Virus record (IMG/VR): IMGVR_UViG_3300041403_000657
Coordinates: 1-21,197 of that record
Length of the DNA stretch: 21,197 nt
Direction: 5' to 3' (one strand)
Source: a virus
Part shown: piece by piece, positions 1-21,197 of the stretch
How the letters are laid out: every line of letters starts with the position of its first letter
How positions within the stretch are numbered: the stretch's first letter is position 1
The notes under the pieces: generated by a model
What the model was told of the DNA's origin: nothing
What the model saw: the letters and a program-made list of their open reading frames with translations, nothing else
Databases searched by the model: none
Translations under genes and position numbers: made by a program

Positions 1-104
1 TATTTCCTGCTATTCCTGCTATTTTCCCCGTACTTACTGGGTTTCAAGCACGTTTTCCTGTAGCGCTGTAAATTTGAATAACTGTAGAACTAGAATAACT
101 GCAC

Positions 105-154
105 AACTGGACCGCATTGGACTCCGTTGGACACAACTAAACACTTGTAAACTT
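105..154. repeat. Five helically phased TRRAC repeats
   Basis: CTGGAC (107), TTGGAC (117), TTGGAC (127), CTAAAC (137) and GTAAAC (147) start exactly 10 bp apart. Read as decamers from 105, every unit fits NNNTRRACNN. A 10-bp period places all sites on one face of the helix, as expected for a protein-binding array, and is incompatible with a codon repeat. Lying about 270 bp before terS, it could be a small-terminase recognition (pac/cos) site or an operator. No binding protein can be assigned from sequence. Confidence 0.5.
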
Positions 155-158
155 CTTT

Positions 159-187
159 TAACGTGATACGCTCTGCGTATCACGTTA
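159..187. repeat. Perfect 13-bp inverted repeat with 3-nt loop
   Basis: Arms TAACGTGATACGC (159-171) and its exact complement (175-187) flank a TCT loop. It begins a few bases after the phased repeat array. Neither side has a convincing T-run, so it is not a standard intrinsic terminator in either direction. It may be a protein-binding dyad, an RNA hairpin or part of the packaging site. Confidence 0.6.
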
Positions 188-232
188 TTCATTCAACGTT
201 GATCTCCAAGCTTCAGGCATTCCTTGTGCTTA

Positions 233-260
233 GCCCCCCACCTAGGGGGGCACCTTTTTT
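233..260 (+). terminator. Rho-independent terminator before terS
   Basis: A 7-bp all-GC stem, GCCCCCC (233-239) with GGGGGGC (245-251), has a 5-nt loop and is followed by ACC and six T residues (255-260). It would end transcription entering from an upstream gene outside the window. If so, the terminase operon should have its own promoter between about 260 and 422, but I see no clear sigma70-type boxes there. Confidence 0.75.
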
Positions 261-283
261 CCCAGTACAGATATTTTTGGCGC

Positions 284-319
284 GGGGTACCCCCTTTTCA
301 AACTAGGGACTCCTAGTTT
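284..319. repeat. Two further palindromes between terminator and terS
   Basis: GGGGTACCCC (284-293) is a perfect 10-bp palindrome. AAACTAGG (300-307) pairs with CCTAGTTT (312-319) across a GACT loop, giving an 8-bp hairpin. No T-run follows the second one. They may be operator or RNA-structure elements, or part of the same structured site as the upstream dyad. Function is unknown. Confidence 0.45.
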
Positions 320-387
320 CTATTACGTTTTCGTTGCGTTCTATTTAATTTAGGGCTACGCTTCAGCCAACTTAGTTAGGTAAACCA

Positions 388-402
388 GAACGCACTGCGT
401 TC
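388..402 (+). promoter_or_regulatory. Small hairpin just before terS start
   Basis: GAACGC (388-393) and GCGTTC (397-402) form a 6-bp stem with an ACT loop ending 20 bases before the terS ATG at 423. The terS start lacks a good Shine-Dalgarno match (only GAG at 408-410), so the hairpin could influence translation or be a binding dyad. The call rests on structure and spacing alone. Confidence 0.3.
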
Positions 403-422
403 ATCCCGAGCTACGCACTACA

Positions 423-1025
423 ATGATTTTTGATTATCTAAAACCCTATAAGGACCTTGGGCTAATTCCGCCTATTGATCAGGTGCCTATTAATCGCCCA
501 GCGATCAAGCTGTCGGAGCGAGAGGAAATCTTTGCCTGCGCCAAAACTGCACGCCTACTGAATGAGCTAGGCGACGACATTGAGATAACCCACGAAGATG
601 AAGCTCGTGCGCAAGATGCGTTTAAAACGCACCGCAAGCTGACAAAGCACGAAAAGAAGCTGCCCGGCATGATGCTCAAGCTTGAAGCGCTGCTGACTGC
701 CTATGATCACCAGATAATTAAAGACGCAGAGCAGGTTCGCAACTATGTGAAGCACAAGCTGCTCGAAGAGACTGACAACGAGGACCCGAAGATTCGTCTG
801 AAGGCGTTAGAACTCCTCGGTAAGGTTACAGATGTAGGCATATTCACTGAGCGCCATGAGATTACAGTCAAGCACCAGAGCACAGAAGAGCTAGAAGACC
901 TGTTGCTCAGTAAACTTGAGCGTGTGATCGAGGGTGAAGTGGTTGAAGAAGTGCCAGCTAAGCTTGATACAAAGAGTAAGTCGTACAAACTAGCCGAAAC
1001 AGTGTCTGTTGAGGACTTATTATGA
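423..1025 (+). CDS. terS: Terminase small subunit (probable)
   Basis: This 200-aa protein probably recognises phage DNA and recruits the large terminase to start packaging into the procapsid. Support: it sits directly upstream of an unmistakable large terminase with an ATGA overlap (1022-1025), and its size and acidic, mostly helical composition suit the role. The segment at about residues 125-150 (LKALELLGKVTDVGIFTE) resembles small terminase proteins of podovirus-like marine phages as I know them. The N-terminal third (residues 25-60) would be the DNA-binding part, the middle the oligomerisation core, and the acidic C-terminus the contact to TerL; this partition is by analogy. The start at 423 is the only ATG before Met82, but it has a weak ribosome site and a hairpin just upstream. 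It could instead be a different packaging accessory protein, though position makes that unlikely. Confidence 0.78.
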   Translation: MIFDYLKPYKDLGLIPPIDQVPINRPAIKLSEREEIFACAKTARLLNELGDDIEITHEDEARAQDAFKTHRKLTKHEKKLPGMMLKLEALLTAYDHQIIKDAEQVRNYVKHKLLEETDNEDPKIRLKALELLGKVTDVGIFTERHEITVKHQSTEELEDLLLSKLERVIEGEVVEEVPAKLDTKSKSYKLAETVSVEDLL

Positions 1026-2605
1026 GCCTAGGGCCGGTGAAATCGAAGATTACGCCGGAGAAAGCGCGTCTGCTCTACCAGAACCTCAATAAGTTCACCC
1101 CAGAAGAGCAGGTAAAGATAGTAGAGATTCTAGAAGAGATAGGCATACGCAAAGAAGCTACCGCTGCCAAGGTATCTCTGCTTAAGTTCGCCAAGATGAT
1201 GATGCCGGAGTACAAAATCGGGCCTCACCACAAAAAATTAGCCCAGTTACTCGAAGATATGGCTCACGGGCGCAAGTCTCGCACCACAGTCTCAATCGCA
1301 CCACGTATGGGTAAGTCCCAGCTGACGTCAATTTTCTTTCCGGCGTGGTTTATAGGCAACTGGCCTGACAAAAAGATAATGATGGTGTCGCACACGGCGG
1401 ACTTGGCGGTCGATTTTGGTCGTAAGGTGAGAAATATTGTTGCGACAGAAGAGTATAAACAGATATTCCCAGAAGTAACTCTTGCTGTAGACTCTAAATC
1501 CGCGGGACGTTGGTCCACAAACAAGGGTGGCGAGTATTTCGCAGTCGGTATTGGCGGCGCGATTGCGGGACGGGGCGCTCATCTCCTTGTGATCGACGAC
1601 CCGCACAACGAACAAGATGTCCTCAACGGCAACTTTGACGTTTTCGAGAAGGCGTACGAGTGGTACGCGTATGGTGCTCGGACTCGTCTGATGCCGGGGG
1701 GAGCAGTAGCGGTAGTTGCGACTCGTTGGGCTGAGCAAGACCTGATAGGTAAGCTTCAGACAGACATGATTCGTAATCCAGACGCTGACCAATGGGATGT
1801 GGTTGAATTCCCAGCTCTGTTTGAAAAAGAAGACGCGCCAACAGATGCGCCAGAAGCAGAACGCTACACAGCACTATGGCCTGAGCAATGGCCCGTGGAG
1901 TCTTTATTAAAGACCAAAGCTTCGATGCCGGGTTTCCAGTGGGCCGCACAATATCTCCAACAACCGACTAACCGCGATGCGTCAATCGTAAAACGTGAGT
2001 GGTGGCAGCCGTGGGAGAAGGATAATCCTCCAGCGTGTCACTACATCATCATGTCACTTGACGCCGCCGCTGAAAAGAACAACCGTGCTGACTTCACCGC
2101 TCTCACTACTTGGGGTGTGTTTAACTTCGAGTCGCCGGAAACGGGTGAGAACGACACGGGGATCATACTGCTCAACAGTATTAAAGAGCGTCTTGAATTC
2201 CCAGAACTCAAACGTCTGGCTTGGCAAGAGTACCAAGACTGGGAGCCTGATTGGTTCGTAGTGGAGAAGAAGTCAGCAGGTACTGCGCTGTATCAAGAGA
2301 TGCGCCGTGCAGGTATACCGGTGCAAGAGATAACACCGACAAGAGCCTCGGGCGATAAGATCGCACGCTTAAATGCAGTTTCAGATATATTTGCAAGTGG
2401 CATGGTCTGGTACCCGGCGGGACGTAGATGGGCTGAAGAAGTCGTAGATGAAGTGTGTGGGTTTCCAGCCATGCCCCACGATGACCTTGTGGATTCAACG
2501 ATTTATGCTCTAATGCGGTTTAGAGATGGCGGATTTATCCGTTTGCCTAGTGACGACTGGGCTGATGACGGTGGATTTGAGCCAATACGCGCGGCTTATT
2601 ATTAA
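1022..2605 (+). CDS. terL: Terminase large subunit (ATPase-nuclease)
   Basis: This is the motor of DNA packaging: it docks on the portal, translocates DNA with ATP and cuts concatemers. At 527 aa it is full length. The N-terminal ATPase shows a Walker A APRMGKSQ (93-100), Walker B HLLVIDDP (187-194) with adjacent acidic residues D192/D193, and a coupling motif VATRW (232-236). The C-terminal RNase H-like nuclease shows D347 (in IIMSLDAAA), E415 (FVVEKKSAG) and D487/D488/D491 (MPHDDLVDS), a complete acidic set. The APR-GKS form of Walker A is the one common in phage terminases. The start overlaps the terS stop as ATGA, so the two are probably translationally coupled. Residues before about 65 form a charged helical N-terminal extension. 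Confidence 0.97.
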   Translation: MSLGPVKSKITPEKARLLYQNLNKFTPEEQVKIVEILEEIGIRKEATAAKVSLLKFAKMMMPEYKIGPHHKKLAQLLEDMAHGRKSRTTVSIAPRMGKSQLTSIFFPAWFIGNWPDKKIMMVSHTADLAVDFGRKVRNIVATEEYKQIFPEVTLAVDSKSAGRWSTNKGGEYFAVGIGGAIAGRGAHLLVIDDPHNEQDVLNGNFDVFEKAYEWYAYGARTRLMPGGAVAVVATRWAEQDLIGKLQTDMIRNPDADQWDVVEFPALFEKEDAPTDAPEAERYTALWPEQWPVESLLKTKASMPGFQWAAQYLQQPTNRDASIVKREWWQPWEKDNPPACHYIIMSLDAAAEKNNRADFTALTTWGVFNFESPETGENDTGIILLNSIKERLEFPELKRLAWQEYQDWEPDWFVVEKKSAGTALYQEMRRAGIPVQEITPTRASGDKIARLNAVSDIFASGMVWYPAGRRWAEEVVDEVCGFPAMPHDDLVDSTIYALMRFRDGGFIRLPSDDWADDGGFEPIRAAYY

Positions 2606-12254: not shown

Positions 12255-13499
12255 GTGGCTGCCGGTTGGGGAACGCTAGCGTGGGGTGAAGCTGGCTGGG
12301 GCGCTGTTCCAGTCACTATCACTTATGACGCGTGGGCCCGCGGCACTTGGGGTCAGGGCACGTTTGGTTCGACTATTGGCCCTGCGGCTCTTTCAACTTC
12401 TGTCGGAACTGTTTCTGTATCTGAAGGTACAGGCGTAGCGGTATCGCTAACCGGCGTAGCAGCCACAACTTCTTTAGGTAGCGAGACTACCTCCACAGAT
12501 CAGGTTATAGCGTTAACCGGTGTTGTTGGAACTACAGCTCTAGGCGATGAAACAGTTGTCGCAACCGCTAATGTAACTGTCACTGGCGTTGCTGGCACCG
12601 CCGCTCTAGGTGATGAGTCTGTTTCTACTGATCAGATTCTATCTGTAACCGGTGTCGCCGGTACTACGGCTCTAGGTGACGAGTCTGTTTCAACCGATCA
12701 GGTTCTATCTTTAACTGGCGTTGCAGGTACCACAGCTCTCGGCGCTGAAACAATCGTAGCTGACGCCAACGTATCTCTTACCGGTGTTGCCGGAACTACG
12801 GCTCTAGGTGATGAGGCTGTATCTACCGACCAAGTTCTATCGGTTACTGGCATTGCCGGTACTACGGCTTTAGGTGCCGAAACAGTTACAGCCGATGCTA
12901 ACGTAGCTCTTACTGGTGTATCGGCTACAGTAGTTTTAAATAATGACGGCGTTTACATATCGCAGACTGTAACTATAGAAGCTACTGGGCTTGAGGCTAC
13001 AACAGGGCTGGGCGATGAAACAGTTGTAGCTAAAGCAGTTGTCGAGCCTACGGGCGTTGCTGGAACTACAGCTCTAGGCGCCGAGTCTGTATTCACGGAT
13101 CAAATTCTTTCTGTTACTGGTGTCTCCGCAACCGCGTCTCTTGGCGATGAATCGCCATCCACCGATCAAGTTTTATCCGTCACTGGCGTAAGCAGCACGG
13201 CGTCTCTCGGGGCTGAAACTACAACCTCTGACGCTAACGTTTCTGTAACCGGTGTTGCCGGTACCACGGCTCTTGGTGATGAGACTGTAGACACAAGCAA
13301 TGTCATCGTCCGGTTAAGTGGCGTTCAGGCGACAGGAAATGTAACAAGTTTAATAATTTGGGGTACACTAGCATCAAGTGTTCCAGCTACAGCATGGGCT
13401 GAATCAGGCACTGGCGGAAGTGTACCGCCTACTTCGTGGACTGAAGCTGGCGCAGGCAGCGGTGTACCACCAACATCATGGTCGGACATAGCGGCTTAA
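12255..13499 (+). CDS. Fibre protein with about fourteen 22-residue repeats
   Basis: A 414-aa protein starting at GTG (12255). Residues 1-40 are Trp/Gly-rich (GWGTLAWGEAGWG, then ARGTWGQGTFG), a likely virion-anchoring head. Residues 65-366 are a tandem array of units of about 22 residues with core TGVAGTTALGDE followed by a variable VSTDQVLS or VVADANVS part. One unit near residue 220 is divergent (LTGVSATVVLNNDGVYIS). The C-terminal 48 residues carry three Trp-containing units (PATAWAESG, PPTSWTEAG, PPTSWSDIA). The array should form an extended beta fibre. DNA copies differ mostly at third positions, so the protein repeat is maintained while DNA identity is reduced. The start has only a weak AGAG site upstream. 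Confidence 0.8.
   Translation: MAAGWGTLAWGEAGWGAVPVTITYDAWARGTWGQGTFGSTIGPAALSTSVGTVSVSEGTGVAVSLTGVAATTSLGSETTSTDQVIALTGVVGTTALGDETVVATANVTVTGVAGTAALGDESVSTDQILSVTGVAGTTALGDESVSTDQVLSLTGVAGTTALGAETIVADANVSLTGVAGTTALGDEAVSTDQVLSVTGIAGTTALGAETVTADANVALTGVSATVVLNNDGVYISQTVTIEATGLEATTGLGDETVVAKAVVEPTGVAGTTALGAESVFTDQILSVTGVSATASLGDESPSTDQVLSVTGVSSTASLGAETTTSDANVSVTGVAGTTALGDETVDTSNVIVRLSGVQATGNVTSLIIWGTLASSVPATAWAESGTGGSVPPTSWTEAGAGSGVPPTSWSDIAA
12447..13352 (+). repeat. Degenerate 66-bp tandem coding repeat
   Basis: About fourteen copies of a 66-bp unit encode the 22-residue fibre repeats. Units around 12580-12900 and 13240-13290 are the most alike, sharing for example ACGGCTCTAGGTGA-like cores with scattered synonymous differences. 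Two alternating subtypes are visible, one ending STDQVLS and one ending ADANVS, so the array may have grown by duplication of a two-unit block. Confidence 0.85.
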
Positions 13500-14066: not shown

Positions 14067-14420
14067 ATGGCAGCACCAAACATTGTAGGCGTAACTACGA
14101 TCACTGGTAAGACCGCGGTTCAAGCCGTAGGTACATCAGCGTCAGCTATCGTCACTAACTCAGCAGCAAGCGGTAAAGTATACAAGGTTAACGCTTTGTA
14201 CATCTCAAACGTAGACGGCACTGACAACGCTGAAATCAACGTTGACCTGTATCGCTCATCAACTGCGTACCACATCGGCAAGACCATCGTGGTCCCTGCT
14301 GACGCTACTTTGGACGTTTTAAGTAAAGCAATCTACCTTGAGGAAGGCGATTCACTGCGTTTAACAGCAAACGCAACATCTGACCTTGAGGCTGTTTGTT
14401 CATACGAAGAGATTAGCTAA
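14067..14420 (+). CDS. Small beta-sandwich virion protein
   Basis: A 117-aa protein with LYISNVDGTDNAEINVDLYR (48-67), then STAYHIGKTIVVPADATLDV (70-89) and IYLEEGDSLRLTANATSDLE (93-112), ending in CSYEEIS. This is a recurrent single-domain virion protein in marine and other phages, usually next to fibre genes. The function is structural by context. AGGAG precedes the ATG and the stop overlaps the first glycine-rich gene (TAATG, 14418-14422). Confidence 0.75.
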   Translation: MAAPNIVGVTTITGKTAVQAVGTSASAIVTNSAASGKVYKVNALYISNVDGTDNAEINVDLYRSSTAYHIGKTIVVPADATLDVLSKAIYLEEGDSLRLTANATSDLEAVCSYEEIS

Positions 14421-15319
14421 TGGCAACATTTCCGGACACTGATGGTGCGTCTGGAATCTGGACGCTAAAGCAGCAAAAACGTGCTCAAAAGGGTGATAAA
14501 TGGCCTGAGTTGCCTGTTGGTATTACGGCTACTGGCGGCACTATAACGACATCTGGTGATTACAAGTATCACGCTTTCACTTCATCAGGAACATTAACTG
14601 TTTCCGATTTAGGCAATCAAGGCAGTACGATTGAATACATCGTTGTTGGTGGCGGTGGTTCAGGCGGTACTGGTTCATACGGTATAGGTGGTCTATACAA
14701 TGGCGGTGGCGGCGGCGGTGGTGGTATACAACACAGCGCAAGTTTTACAACCTCTGTAACTGATTACTCGATAACTATCGGCGGTGGCGCAGCAGGTGTT
14801 GCACCACAAAACAACCCGGGTAACAACGGCACCGCTTCTACTGCTTTTGGAGTTACGGCAGGTGCAGGTAACAAAAACAGCGGACTTACAGGTGGATCCT
14901 CTGGTACTCCGCAAAGCAATTCTGGCGGTGGCGGCGGATCGTATTCCGGTGGCGGCGGTGGCGGCGCAGGTGGAACAGGCGTTGGTGGCGGTGGCAACGT
15001 ATCTAAGCTTGGTGGCGCAGGTGCTTATTACCCATCCTTTACCTCATGGGGTGCAGCTGCTCAATCTACTGCAACAACAACTCCAACTCCAAATGGTTAC
15101 TTTGCGGGTGGTGGTTCTGGAGCTGGTGCAAGTGCAATTGGCAGACCATCTGGCGGCGGTGGCTCATCGTCAACTCAGGGAGCTTCAACTTCAACTGGTA
15201 TTCATGCAGGTTTTGCTAATACTGGCGGTGGCGGTGGCGGTGGTTACGCACAAAGCAGTTACTCAGGTAACGGCGGCTCAGGCATTGTAATCATTCGTTA
15301 TCAGTATCAGAATTTTTAA
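14420..15319 (+). CDS. Glycine-rich tail-tip protein, paralogue 1
   Basis: A 299-aa probable adhesin. It opens with the anchor motif SGIWTLKQQKRAQKGDKWPE (11-30), shared in form with the next two genes. It then has a strand module TGGTITTSGDYKYHAFTSSG (38-57) and, from about 74 to 290, poly-glycine stretches separated by short variable segments, ending GGSGIVIIRYQYQNF. Such Gly-rich domains in phage receptor-binding proteins are known to pack as polyglycine-II helices, with the loops between contacting the receptor. It differs from paralogues 2 and 3 by having the DYKYHAFTSSG module before, not after, the glycine region. The long open frames on the opposite strand here are proline-rich shadows. 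Confidence 0.82.
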   Translation: MATFPDTDGASGIWTLKQQKRAQKGDKWPELPVGITATGGTITTSGDYKYHAFTSSGTLTVSDLGNQGSTIEYIVVGGGGSGGTGSYGIGGLYNGGGGGGGGIQHSASFTTSVTDYSITIGGGAAGVAPQNNPGNNGTASTAFGVTAGAGNKNSGLTGGSSGTPQSNSGGGGGSYSGGGGGGAGGTGVGGGGNVSKLGGAGAYYPSFTSWGAAAQSTATTTPTPNGYFAGGGSGAGASAIGRPSGGGGSSSTQGASTSTGIHAGFANTGGGGGGGYAQSSYSGNGGSGIVIIRYQYQNF

Positions 15320-15329
15320 GGGTTAAACG

Positions 15330-16298
15330 ATGGCGGACAATCCAAGTTCAACAGAAGCATCTGGCGTTTGGTCTTTAGACGACAACTACAATGCAGAGGC
15401 AGGTGATAACTGGCCTGAAATGCCTTATCCCATTTCGTACCTCGTTATTGCCGGTGGCGGTGGTGGCGGTGGTGACTTCGGCGGCGGCGCAGGTGCAGGT
15501 GGCTACAGAAATAGCTATGCCTCAGAAACTTCTGGTGGTGGAGCGTCAACTGAAACACCAATATCTTTACTTGCAGGAACAACATTAACCGTTACTGTCG
15601 GTGCAGGTGGTTCAGGTAGCGGTAAGCCGTCAACTACCGGTTCAAACGGCAATACCTCAAGCATTACTGGTTCAGGCATTACAACTGTTACTACATCAGG
15701 CGGTGGTCTTGGTGGTGGTTTGTCACCAACTGGCGGTTTTGGTCAAACAGGTGGTTCAGGTGGTGGTCATCAGTGTGGCGGCACCATTTCAACAAGAGCA
15801 TCTGGAACAACTGGTGAGGGATATGCCGGTGGTACGTCAAATGTTTTTAGTGGGGGCTGGACTGCAACCGGCGGCGGCGGTGGTGGCGCAGGTGAGTTAG
15901 GCGACAATGGCGGTATTTCAGGCGCAGGAGATAATGGTGATGGTGGTGACGGTCTTTCATCAAGCATCACAGGCTCGGCAGTAACCCGAGGTGGCGGCGG
16001 TGGTTCTGCTGCTATTTCAGGCGGAAGCGAAACAATAGGCTATGGCGGCGCAGGCGGCGGCGGTAACGGCGCACTCGAATACGGCAATGGTGGAAATGGC
16101 TCTGCAAACACTGGCGGCGGTGGCGGTGGCTCAGGTGGCTATAATGGTGAATTCGGTGGTACTGGTGGTTCAGGCGTTGTAATCCTAAGAATCCCAACTG
16201 CAAACTATTCAGGCACAACTACTGGTTCACCTTCTGTTTCTACTGACGGTTCAGATACAATCTTAGTGTTTAATTCATCAGGCTCTTACACTTCATAA
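15330..16298 (+). CDS. Glycine-rich tail-tip protein, paralogue 2
   Basis: A 322-aa paralogue of its neighbours. Anchor motif SGVWSLDDNYNAEAGDNWPE (11-30), then YLVIAGGGGGGG and a long glycine-rich region with insertions such as SNVFSGGWTATG, ending GGSGVVILRIPTANYSG and a C-terminal module TGSPSVSTDGSDTILVFNSS (298-317). It starts 11 bases after the previous stop. It has the same proposed role as a receptor-binding tip. Variable loops between glycine blocks differ strongly from the other paralogues while the ends stay alike, as expected where receptor specificity is under selection. Confidence 0.82.
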   Translation: MADNPSSTEASGVWSLDDNYNAEAGDNWPEMPYPISYLVIAGGGGGGGDFGGGAGAGGYRNSYASETSGGGASTETPISLLAGTTLTVTVGAGGSGSGKPSTTGSNGNTSSITGSGITTVTTSGGGLGGGLSPTGGFGQTGGSGGGHQCGGTISTRASGTTGEGYAGGTSNVFSGGWTATGGGGGGAGELGDNGGISGAGDNGDGGDGLSSSITGSAVTRGGGGGSAAISGGSETIGYGGAGGGGNGALEYGNGGNGSANTGGGGGGSGGYNGEFGGTGGSGVVILRIPTANYSGTTTGSPSVSTDGSDTILVFNSSGSYTS

Positions 16299-16307
16299 GG
16301 AACACAC

Positions 16308-17222
16308 ATGGCACAATTTCCAAGTACAAGTTCTGCTTACGGTGTTTGGTCACTGAAAGAAAACCGTGATGCTGAGATGGGCGATAACTGGCCTGAGTTG
16401 CCACCTGTTGTTGAGTATCTCGTTATCGCCGGTGGTGCTTCTGGCGGTGGTGGTGGTACATCATCAGTATACGATGGTGGCGGCGGTGGTGGAGCCGGTG
16501 GTTATCGCACATCTACACTTGAATTAACCAAGTCTACTGCATACACAGTTACTATTGGTGCCGGTGGCGCATCAATACAATCAGACCGTGGCAATAACGG
16601 CAATACTTCTACCTTTGCAACTATTAGCTCGTCCGGTGGCGGTGGCGGTGGTTGGAATAGTAATAAGTATGGTAAAGACGGCGGCTCAGGTGGCGGTGGT
16701 TCCGAGCAATCTAGCGCAGATGGCGGCTCAGGTAACATAGGCGGTTATACACCAGTAGAAGGTTATGATGGCGGCTCTGGTTTAGTAGGCGCTAATGGTG
16801 CCGGCGCAGGCGGTGGCGGTGCCTCAGAAGCAGGCCATGACCCGACTGGAAGCTACCCTAATGGAAGCGGTGGCGCAGGTGGTGATGGCGAAGCTTCTTC
16901 AATTACTGGTTCATCTGTTACTCGTGCAGGTGGCGGTGGCGGTGGTATCCGCTACTCAGGTTCAGGCGTTGCAGGAGCAGGTGGCGCAGGTGGTGGCGGC
17001 AATGGCGGTGGCGTTGGTGCAGCCGGTTCAGCCGGTTCAACTAATACAGGCTCGGGCGGCGGCGGTGGTGGCGCAAATAATGTTTCAGGCGCAGGCGGCT
17101 CTGGTGTAGTCATCCTTCGCACTCTCTCTACCGCAGCTTCAACGACAGGCTCACCTTCAGTAACTACAGATGGTAGTTATAATATCTACACGTTCACATC
17201 TTCTGGTTCAATTACGTTCTAA
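16308..17222 (+). CDS. Glycine-rich tail-tip protein, paralogue 3
   Basis: A 304-aa protein with the same plan: anchor YGVWSLKENRDAEMGDNWPE (11-30), VEYLVIAGGASGGGGG, a glycine region to about 265, GGSGVVILRTLSTAAS and a terminal TGSPSVTTDGSYNIYTFTSS (280-299). It begins nine bases after paralogue 2. Overall it is closer to paralogue 2 than to paralogue 1 in module order. Whether all three are on each virion or serve as a recombination reservoir cannot be read from the sequence. Confidence 0.82.
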   Translation: MAQFPSTSSAYGVWSLKENRDAEMGDNWPELPPVVEYLVIAGGASGGGGGTSSVYDGGGGGGAGGYRTSTLELTKSTAYTVTIGAGGASIQSDRGNNGNTSTFATISSSGGGGGGWNSNKYGKDGGSGGGGSEQSSADGGSGNIGGYTPVEGYDGGSGLVGANGAGAGGGGASEAGHDPTGSYPNGSGGAGGDGEASSITGSSVTRAGGGGGGIRYSGSGVAGAGGAGGGGNGGGVGAAGSAGSTNTGSGGGGGGANNVSGAGGSGVVILRTLSTAASTTGSPSVTTDGSYNIYTFTSSGSITF

Positions 17223-20876: not shown

Positions 20877-21197
20877 ATGGCAGACCTTGGGGAAAAACTT
20901 GACGACATTGAAGGCTTGGCTGACAAACGTCTCAGCGTGGGTGGGCTGCGGTTTACACCTACTCAGCTTGGTCTTGCTCTCGGTCTTGTTTCCAGTGTTG
21001 TTGGTGCTCTTTACGGCGGCTTCGTTATGTACCAAAAGGTTGAAGAGATCGCATCGTTAGACTTAGGCGCATACGCCCAGCAGATGCAGCAGACCAGCGA
21101 CAAGATTGAGACGCAGGAAAAACTGCTCGACTCAATCGAACAGAATTTGCGTGACGCCAAGCAATTGACGTACGACATTGAAAAACGTGTGAACGAT
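20877..21197 (+). CDS. Membrane-anchored coiled-coil protein, cut by window end
   Basis: The frame from ATG 20877 stays open to the last base (107 codons). The N-terminus MADLGEKLDDIEGLADKRLS is amphipathic helix. Residues about 29-51 (TQLGLALGLVSSVVGALYGG, then FVMY) form one membrane segment. From about 53 on, the sequence is heptad-rich helix (QQMQQTSDKIETQEKLLDSI, then EQNLRDAKQLTYDIEKRV). This is the plan of a phage membrane protein with a long extracytoplasmic or cytoplasmic coil; inner-membrane spanins also have an N-terminal anchor and coil, so a lysis role is possible. The C-terminus is outside the window, so neither length nor class can be fixed. Confidence 0.75.
   Translation, partial: MADLGEKLDDIEGLADKRLSVGGLRFTPTQLGLALGLVSSVVGALYGGFVMYQKVEEIASLDLGAYAQQMQQTSDKIETQEKLLDSIEQNLRDAKQLTYDIEKRVND

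Follow-up and report, generated by a model that had tools for sequence, protein, structure and literature searches.

We find an array of five hexamer boxes in exact 10-bp phase ahead of the terminase genes of an uncultivated phage. The sequence analysed, called the window here, comprises all 21,197 bases of a linear virus record in IMG/VR (IMGVR_UViG_3300041403_000657). The phase is kept in its nearest relative, and similar arrays are associated with terL in unrelated phages. Our leading reading, held weakly at a probability of about 0.4, is that the array is a putative multi-box TerS-type recognition site within a packaging-initiation region. The boxes stay in register while their sequence drifts, which speaks for a multimeric DNA-binding protein. 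The location and the wider terL association favour TerS and packaging; transcription control is favoured by the leader next to the array and by the occurrence of arrays at regulator genes. We infer protein binding at the array, TerS as the binder and the start of packaging at this locus.

In the window, 422 bases precede a terS-like gene, which is followed by terL and then by the portal, GroES-like and major head protein genes. The array ends about 260 nt upstream of terS with terL next, the terminase neighbourhood that an earlier sequence-only reading of this DNA had described. Profile searches match TerL to phrog_38 at an E of 1.4e-95 and TerS to phrog_51 weakly at an E of 0.0022, and 12 of 13 aligned TerS homologues match phrog_51 at E<0.1. 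The window TerS has no Pfam match at E<=0.1. Its predicted fold is of low confidence (mean pLDDT 71) with no PDB match at E<=0.001, and the similarity to PDB 3zqp is marginal (E 0.057).

A 5,496-base contig, L001, is identical to window positions 1–1030 and reaches 2,106 bases further upstream. It holds a gap of about 1 kb between a minus-strand gene and terS, and the gap is rich in repeats (two copies of 48 nt, with others of 17 and 9 nt). It also has two long similar non-coding blocks (L001 396–722 and 1593–1881), each with hairpins then ATTCCTTT, on either side of a minus-strand 250-aa gene. Elsewhere in the window, 66-nt coding repeats lie within a 414-aa protein (12498–12919), and three adjacent glycine-rich genes (14420–17222) are alike in make-up. 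The features of the locus are collected in Table 1.

Table 1. Features at and around the array, in window positions unless L001 is named.
Feature	Position	Strand	Remark
48-nt direct repeat, copy 2	23–70	+	copy 1 just upstream of the window, L001 2054–2101
Two 17-nt direct repeats	71–104	+	adjoining the array; repeat search
Box 1, CTGGAC	107–112	+	YGGAC type
Box 2, TTGGAC	117–122	+	YGGAC type
Box 3, TTGGAC	127–132	+	YGGAC type
Box 4, CTAAAC	137–142	+	second box type
Box 5, GTAAAC	147–152	+	second box type
Weak sixth in-phase box, TTTAAC	157–162	+	overlaps the dyad
Weak promoter-like pair, TTGTAA (145–150), 16 nt, TACGCT (167–172)	145–172	+	TGA before TACGCT; by eye, missed by the promoter scan
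Perfect 13-bp dyad, 3-nt loop	159–187	+	arms 159–171 and 175–187
Intrinsic terminator, GCCCCCC..GGGGGGC and T run	233–257	+	closes the leader upstream of terS
GGGACTCC element	306–313	+	conserved in terS-upstream regions of relatives
terS-proximal promoter-like pair, TTGCGT (334–339), 17 nt, TACGCT (357–362)	334–362	+	by eye; counterparts in relatives
terS-like gene, 200 aa	423–1025	+	ORF, profile searches
terL (phrog_38; Terminase_6C)	1022–2605	+	profile searches
~40-bp element, TATACATGCCATTCCACACAAACAATC or a diverged form	L001 1975–2001		just upstream of the window

All five hexamers of the sequence-only reading stand where it had placed them. Its 'five repeats' are right as five in-phase boxes but not as a single box type, because three are YGGAC and two are NTAAAC. 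Box 2 runs on as GGACTCC (119–125), a 7-mer whose one other occurrence in the window is at 307.

The exact 10-bp phase is borne out by self-match beyond shuffles. Within 105–154, bases 10 apart are identical in 24 of 40 comparisons (0.60), and other lags from 3 to 19 give 0.08–0.34. Across the 600 nt that precede terS, the highest-scoring 50-nt segment at lag 10 has 30/50; none of 1000 dinucleotide shuffles equals this at the same lag, and 1 of 1000 does so at any lag of 8–14. The stricter five-hexamer column score is weaker evidence for the array than the lag-10 self-match, as its 23/30 is reached by 4 of 300 shuffles at period 10 and by 44 of 300 at any period of 8–21. YGGAC-N5-YGGAC starts only at 108 and 118 in the whole 21,197-base record, and the three-box YGGAC form occurs once in it and in none of 100 shuffles.

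The nearest relative, L004, has a TerL 93% identical and a TerS 52% identical to those of the window. It carries a 10-bp array of NYGGACNCCA units and then ATAAGC-type units, the two box types being in the same order and phase as in the window, and its phase is also beyond shuffles. The arrays lie at −318 (window lineage) and −322 (L004) from the terS ATG. An ungapped alignment of the two has 35 identical bases out of 60, a score that none of 1000 shuffles reaches; window segments clear of the array score 25–28. The best gapped match between the two regions is the block 108–264, comprising the array and the leader (104/157).

Beyond this pair the array is scarce. Among the leader-bearing close contigs (L001 and L003–L006), only L001 and L004 have a 10-bp array; L003 and L005 have none at the locus, and L006 has 9-bp repeats where the window has the array. 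L007 and L010 have neither array nor leader, relatives with a TerS 54–58% identical to that of the window are mostly without the array, and the isolates with 43–46% TerL identity (HTVC023P, DSL-LC04 and 023Pt_psg01) have none of the elements. A search of genome contigs returned two remote matches. The comparison of terS-upstream regions for conserved decamers, which the sequence-only reading had called for, thus finds the array kept in L004 only.

That the array marks packaging throughout the family is rejected, also by the refuting condition which the sequence-only reading had set, because it is kept in only one other lineage and most relatives are without it. Significant short tandem arrays occur in 17 of 89 terS-upstream regions versus 3 of 89 coding controls, the 89 representatives having been selected among 124 contigs that reach 250 nt or more upstream. 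Their periods range from 8 to 24, so one helical turn is no family rule.

As a packaging site shared by the family, the conserved non-coding locus is a stronger candidate than the array by itself; the candidate elements common to the family fall outside the array. Besides the array, C-tracts, GGGACTCC or its reverse complement, and an element of about 40 bp (TATACATGCCATTCCACACAAACAATC in close relatives, TATTACTAATCTnCACGAACAAT in distant ones) recur upstream of terS and are close to unique within each genome. Within 700 nt upstream, GGGACTCC/GGAGTCCC is found in 41 of the 89 representatives versus 3 in a 700-nt control. C-tracts are found upstream of terS in 60 of the 89 versus 1 in the control stretch, and the ~40-bp element in 38 versus 0.

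GGGACTCC/GGAGTCCC comes once or twice per relative, mostly at −40 to −310 from terS, and is scarce elsewhere in the genomes checked. Just upstream of terS lie 11 of 12 GGGACTCC matches (13 records) and all 6 CCCCCCACCCCC C-tract matches, the latter being the single match in each of 6 records. A literature search for GGGACTCC with phage gave nothing relevant. Of 34 close contigs, 20 have an end 250–1250 nt before terL versus 6.7 expected; the ends are scattered without a common base, several of them in C-tracts, so assembly breaks are as likely an explanation.

On our leading reading, the array would be a multi-box protein-binding site read from one DNA face and would sit in a non-coding locus of packaging and control before terS. 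Its most likely reader would be the small terminase or a TerS–TerL complex, with several subunits of the TerS ring each contacting one box per helical turn. The site would be part of a packaging-initiation region of the pac/cos type, to which the C-tracts, GGGACTCC and the ~40-bp element of the wider family would also belong.

Decamer arrays of YGGAC recur widely among viral contigs. Scanned with the consensus of the three boxes in the window and L004, these contigs give 41 stretches, and with the reversed pattern 14; the four-box form (YGGACN5 x4) gives at least 120. A strong core is present in 17 of 40 YGGAC arrays versus 5 of 14 reversed-motif arrays. The reversed-motif scan also yields decamer arrays, and decamers in tandem are thus not in themselves special to YGGAC. 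One of these control arrays, L219, lies 1.17 kb from a terL.

Forty non-coding four-box arrays were drawn from 77 new loci among the matches listed, and terL was looked for at all 40 with phrog_2 and phrog_15. It was located in 19 records, or 17 lineages. Among the matches listed, the array is within 1.5 kb of terL in 9 of the 17 lineages versus 2.73 expected by uniform placement (P 2.1e-4), and is far from it in 8. The 1.5-kb cut-off was picked after the distances were seen, so we also give 1.0 kb (5/17, P 0.028) and 2.0 kb (9/17, P 0.0015) for the same listed matches. Some flanks had also been seen beforehand, and YGGAC was the only motif tested against terL. For the records of at least 12 kb among the matches listed, 5 of 11 arrays are within 1.5 kb versus 1.08 expected (P 0.0023).

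In these counts L276 and L305 were merged with L253, the two records of L261/L277 were counted once, and L264 was excluded as found through its flank only. L284, a 5-bp repeat, is in the main test and out of the 12-kb version. The pac/cos candidacy proposed by the sequence-only reading hence gains comparative support, because YGGAC arrays are near terL oftener than placement predicts, but not the support of conservation in the family.

PHROGs naming covered 40 ORFs beside 29 four-box loci and 10 ORFs beside 8 three-copy loci. Arrays lie 11 nt before a phrog_51 terS (L180/L206), 100 nt and 279 nt before a phrog_57 terS (L261 and L265, respectively), beside a phrog_9 terL (L253) and between a phrog_38 terL and a portal gene (L264). 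The L264 record (G080) has two separate four-box arrays, at 15536–15570 and 21064–21098, one of them being that between terL and portal. By profile comparison the window TerS resembles neither that of L180 nor that of L265, and the L186 array found no good match among annotated phages. Linker divergence does not differ between the terminase-adjacent and other arrays (Mann-Whitney P 0.89).

Similar arrays at integrases and repressors (the latter in L193 and L285) count against the packaging reading. Two more arrays, in L256 and L282, are beside the phrog_36 transcription regulator; the L282 phrog_36 ORF and the L256 pair were classed as regulator neighbours, not as terminase. A literature search, with most subscription journals outside its coverage, listed no reports of such arrays with terminase.

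A broader proposal, unlikely in our judgement, is that helically phased YGGAC decamer arrays form a widespread and undescribed packaging-initiation class. Three to ten boxes would stand beside the terminase genes of unrelated phages at one box per turn, and a single subunit of a TerS ring, with the DNA bent around the ring, would read each box. The window would then be a degenerate member.

Ranked closely below packaging recognition, though still somewhat unlikely, is control of a leader. The array would be the upstream activating site or operator of a predicted short transcription unit before the terS promoter. This unit would run from a promoter through a 5′ hairpin and a structured RNA of about 100 nt to the terminator, with a second promoter for terS beyond it. 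A phage regulator would bind one box per turn and switch the leader or small RNA, somewhat like a read-through late leader.

The perfect dyad that the sequence-only reading had claimed next to the array is present. It resembles an RNA hairpin at the start of a short, terminated transcript more than it does part of a cos site, which leaves room for a promoter or operator role of the array. The dyad itself is probably such a hairpin, close to the 5′ end, or else an operator. The predicted RNA 159–262 folds at −41.4 kcal/mol versus −20.3 in shuffles (z −7.4). Moreover, with the adjacent L001 gene running on the minus strand, only a transcript begun in the gap needs the terminator.

Leader control is further favoured by the array, dyad, leader and terminator being one block common to the window and L004, and by the YGGAC arrays next to phrog_36. 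Comparable terminated cassettes stand at the same place in L003–L006; L146 has one too, as an insert flanked by conserved elements. Their hairpins are unlike in sequence, which suggests an RNA feature. However, the cassette comes without any such array in L003, L005 and L146. A promoter scan of 1–700 (at 9/12) finds no plus-strand sigma70 site either, and the hexamers picked by eye are weak.

The L005 leader resembles in layout Rfam RF02837 (anti-hemB, 27.3 bits) and RF02278 (toxic sRNA, 22.2 bits); these scores are below the curated gathering scores of 49.5 and 50, and membership in either sRNA family is rejected. The window leader has no Rfam match. Pairing between the array and the leader RNA is also rejected, as the window duplex is matched by 1 of 300 shuffles as low but the L004 duplex by 285 of 300.

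An improbable origin is slippage during replication: the array would be its by-product in an intergenic region that changes fast, and no protein would bind it. The region is indeed full of other repeats, the locus is enriched in tandem arrays of many periods over the coding controls, and 44 of 300 shuffles reach the five-box score alone once periods of 8–21 are allowed. Slippage nevertheless sits poorly with units that have diverged yet remain in register, and with L004 keeping both box types. Least probable are sites of another phage protein (putative replication initiator iterons, integrase arm-type or partition-type sites), for although YGGAC arrays adjoin a helicase gene (L269) and lie 63–320 nt from integrase genes (L210, L272, L291 and L302), where they could be arm-type sites, no integrase, repressor or initiator was recognised among the minority of ORFs searched in this 21-kb fragment.

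Phage lambda offers two comparisons. In its cosB, the R sites are bound by gpNu1. The window likewise has several candidate recognition boxes near terminase genes, but the R sites are longer than its boxes and are not known to stand in contiguous 10-bp phase. The lambda pR′/6S leader is a short RNA closed by the intrinsic terminator tR′ ahead of the late genes. The window shares the terminator before late genes and, as predicted, the short leader, whereas it has a second promoter-like pair past the terminator.

The pac of the Bacillus subtilis phages SPP1 and SF6 is another parallel, and SPP1 pac is a precedent for the packaging reading. In the available excerpt of PMC4737164, direct repeats come in sets that span the terS promoter of SPP1 pac, before and at the terS start, the SPP1/SF6 repeats are poorly conserved between relatives, and the helix-turn-helix motifs of the TerS ring are about one DNA turn apart; against the packaging reading, SF6 TerS showed little specificity for its own repeats. 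As far as this excerpt goes, the window is alike in having direct repeats before terS that are poorly kept between relatives. It differs in that its locus is known from sequence alone and its TerS is only marginally similar. By analogy with SPP1 pac, which spans the terS promoters, packaging recognition and leader control may overlap.

How TerS recognises the packaging site is unsettled. According to the available part of a 2022 review, all proposed models of TerS DNA binding have major weaknesses and leave the sequence specificity unexplained (PMC9611059). If packaging recognition is true, the one-box-per-turn arrays by terminase genes would be a defined substrate for testing the wrapped-ring model, and the box sequence is now in hand for the phages carrying such arrays. 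For a large group of uncultivated phages, the locus also supplies candidate packaging elements that recur across the family.
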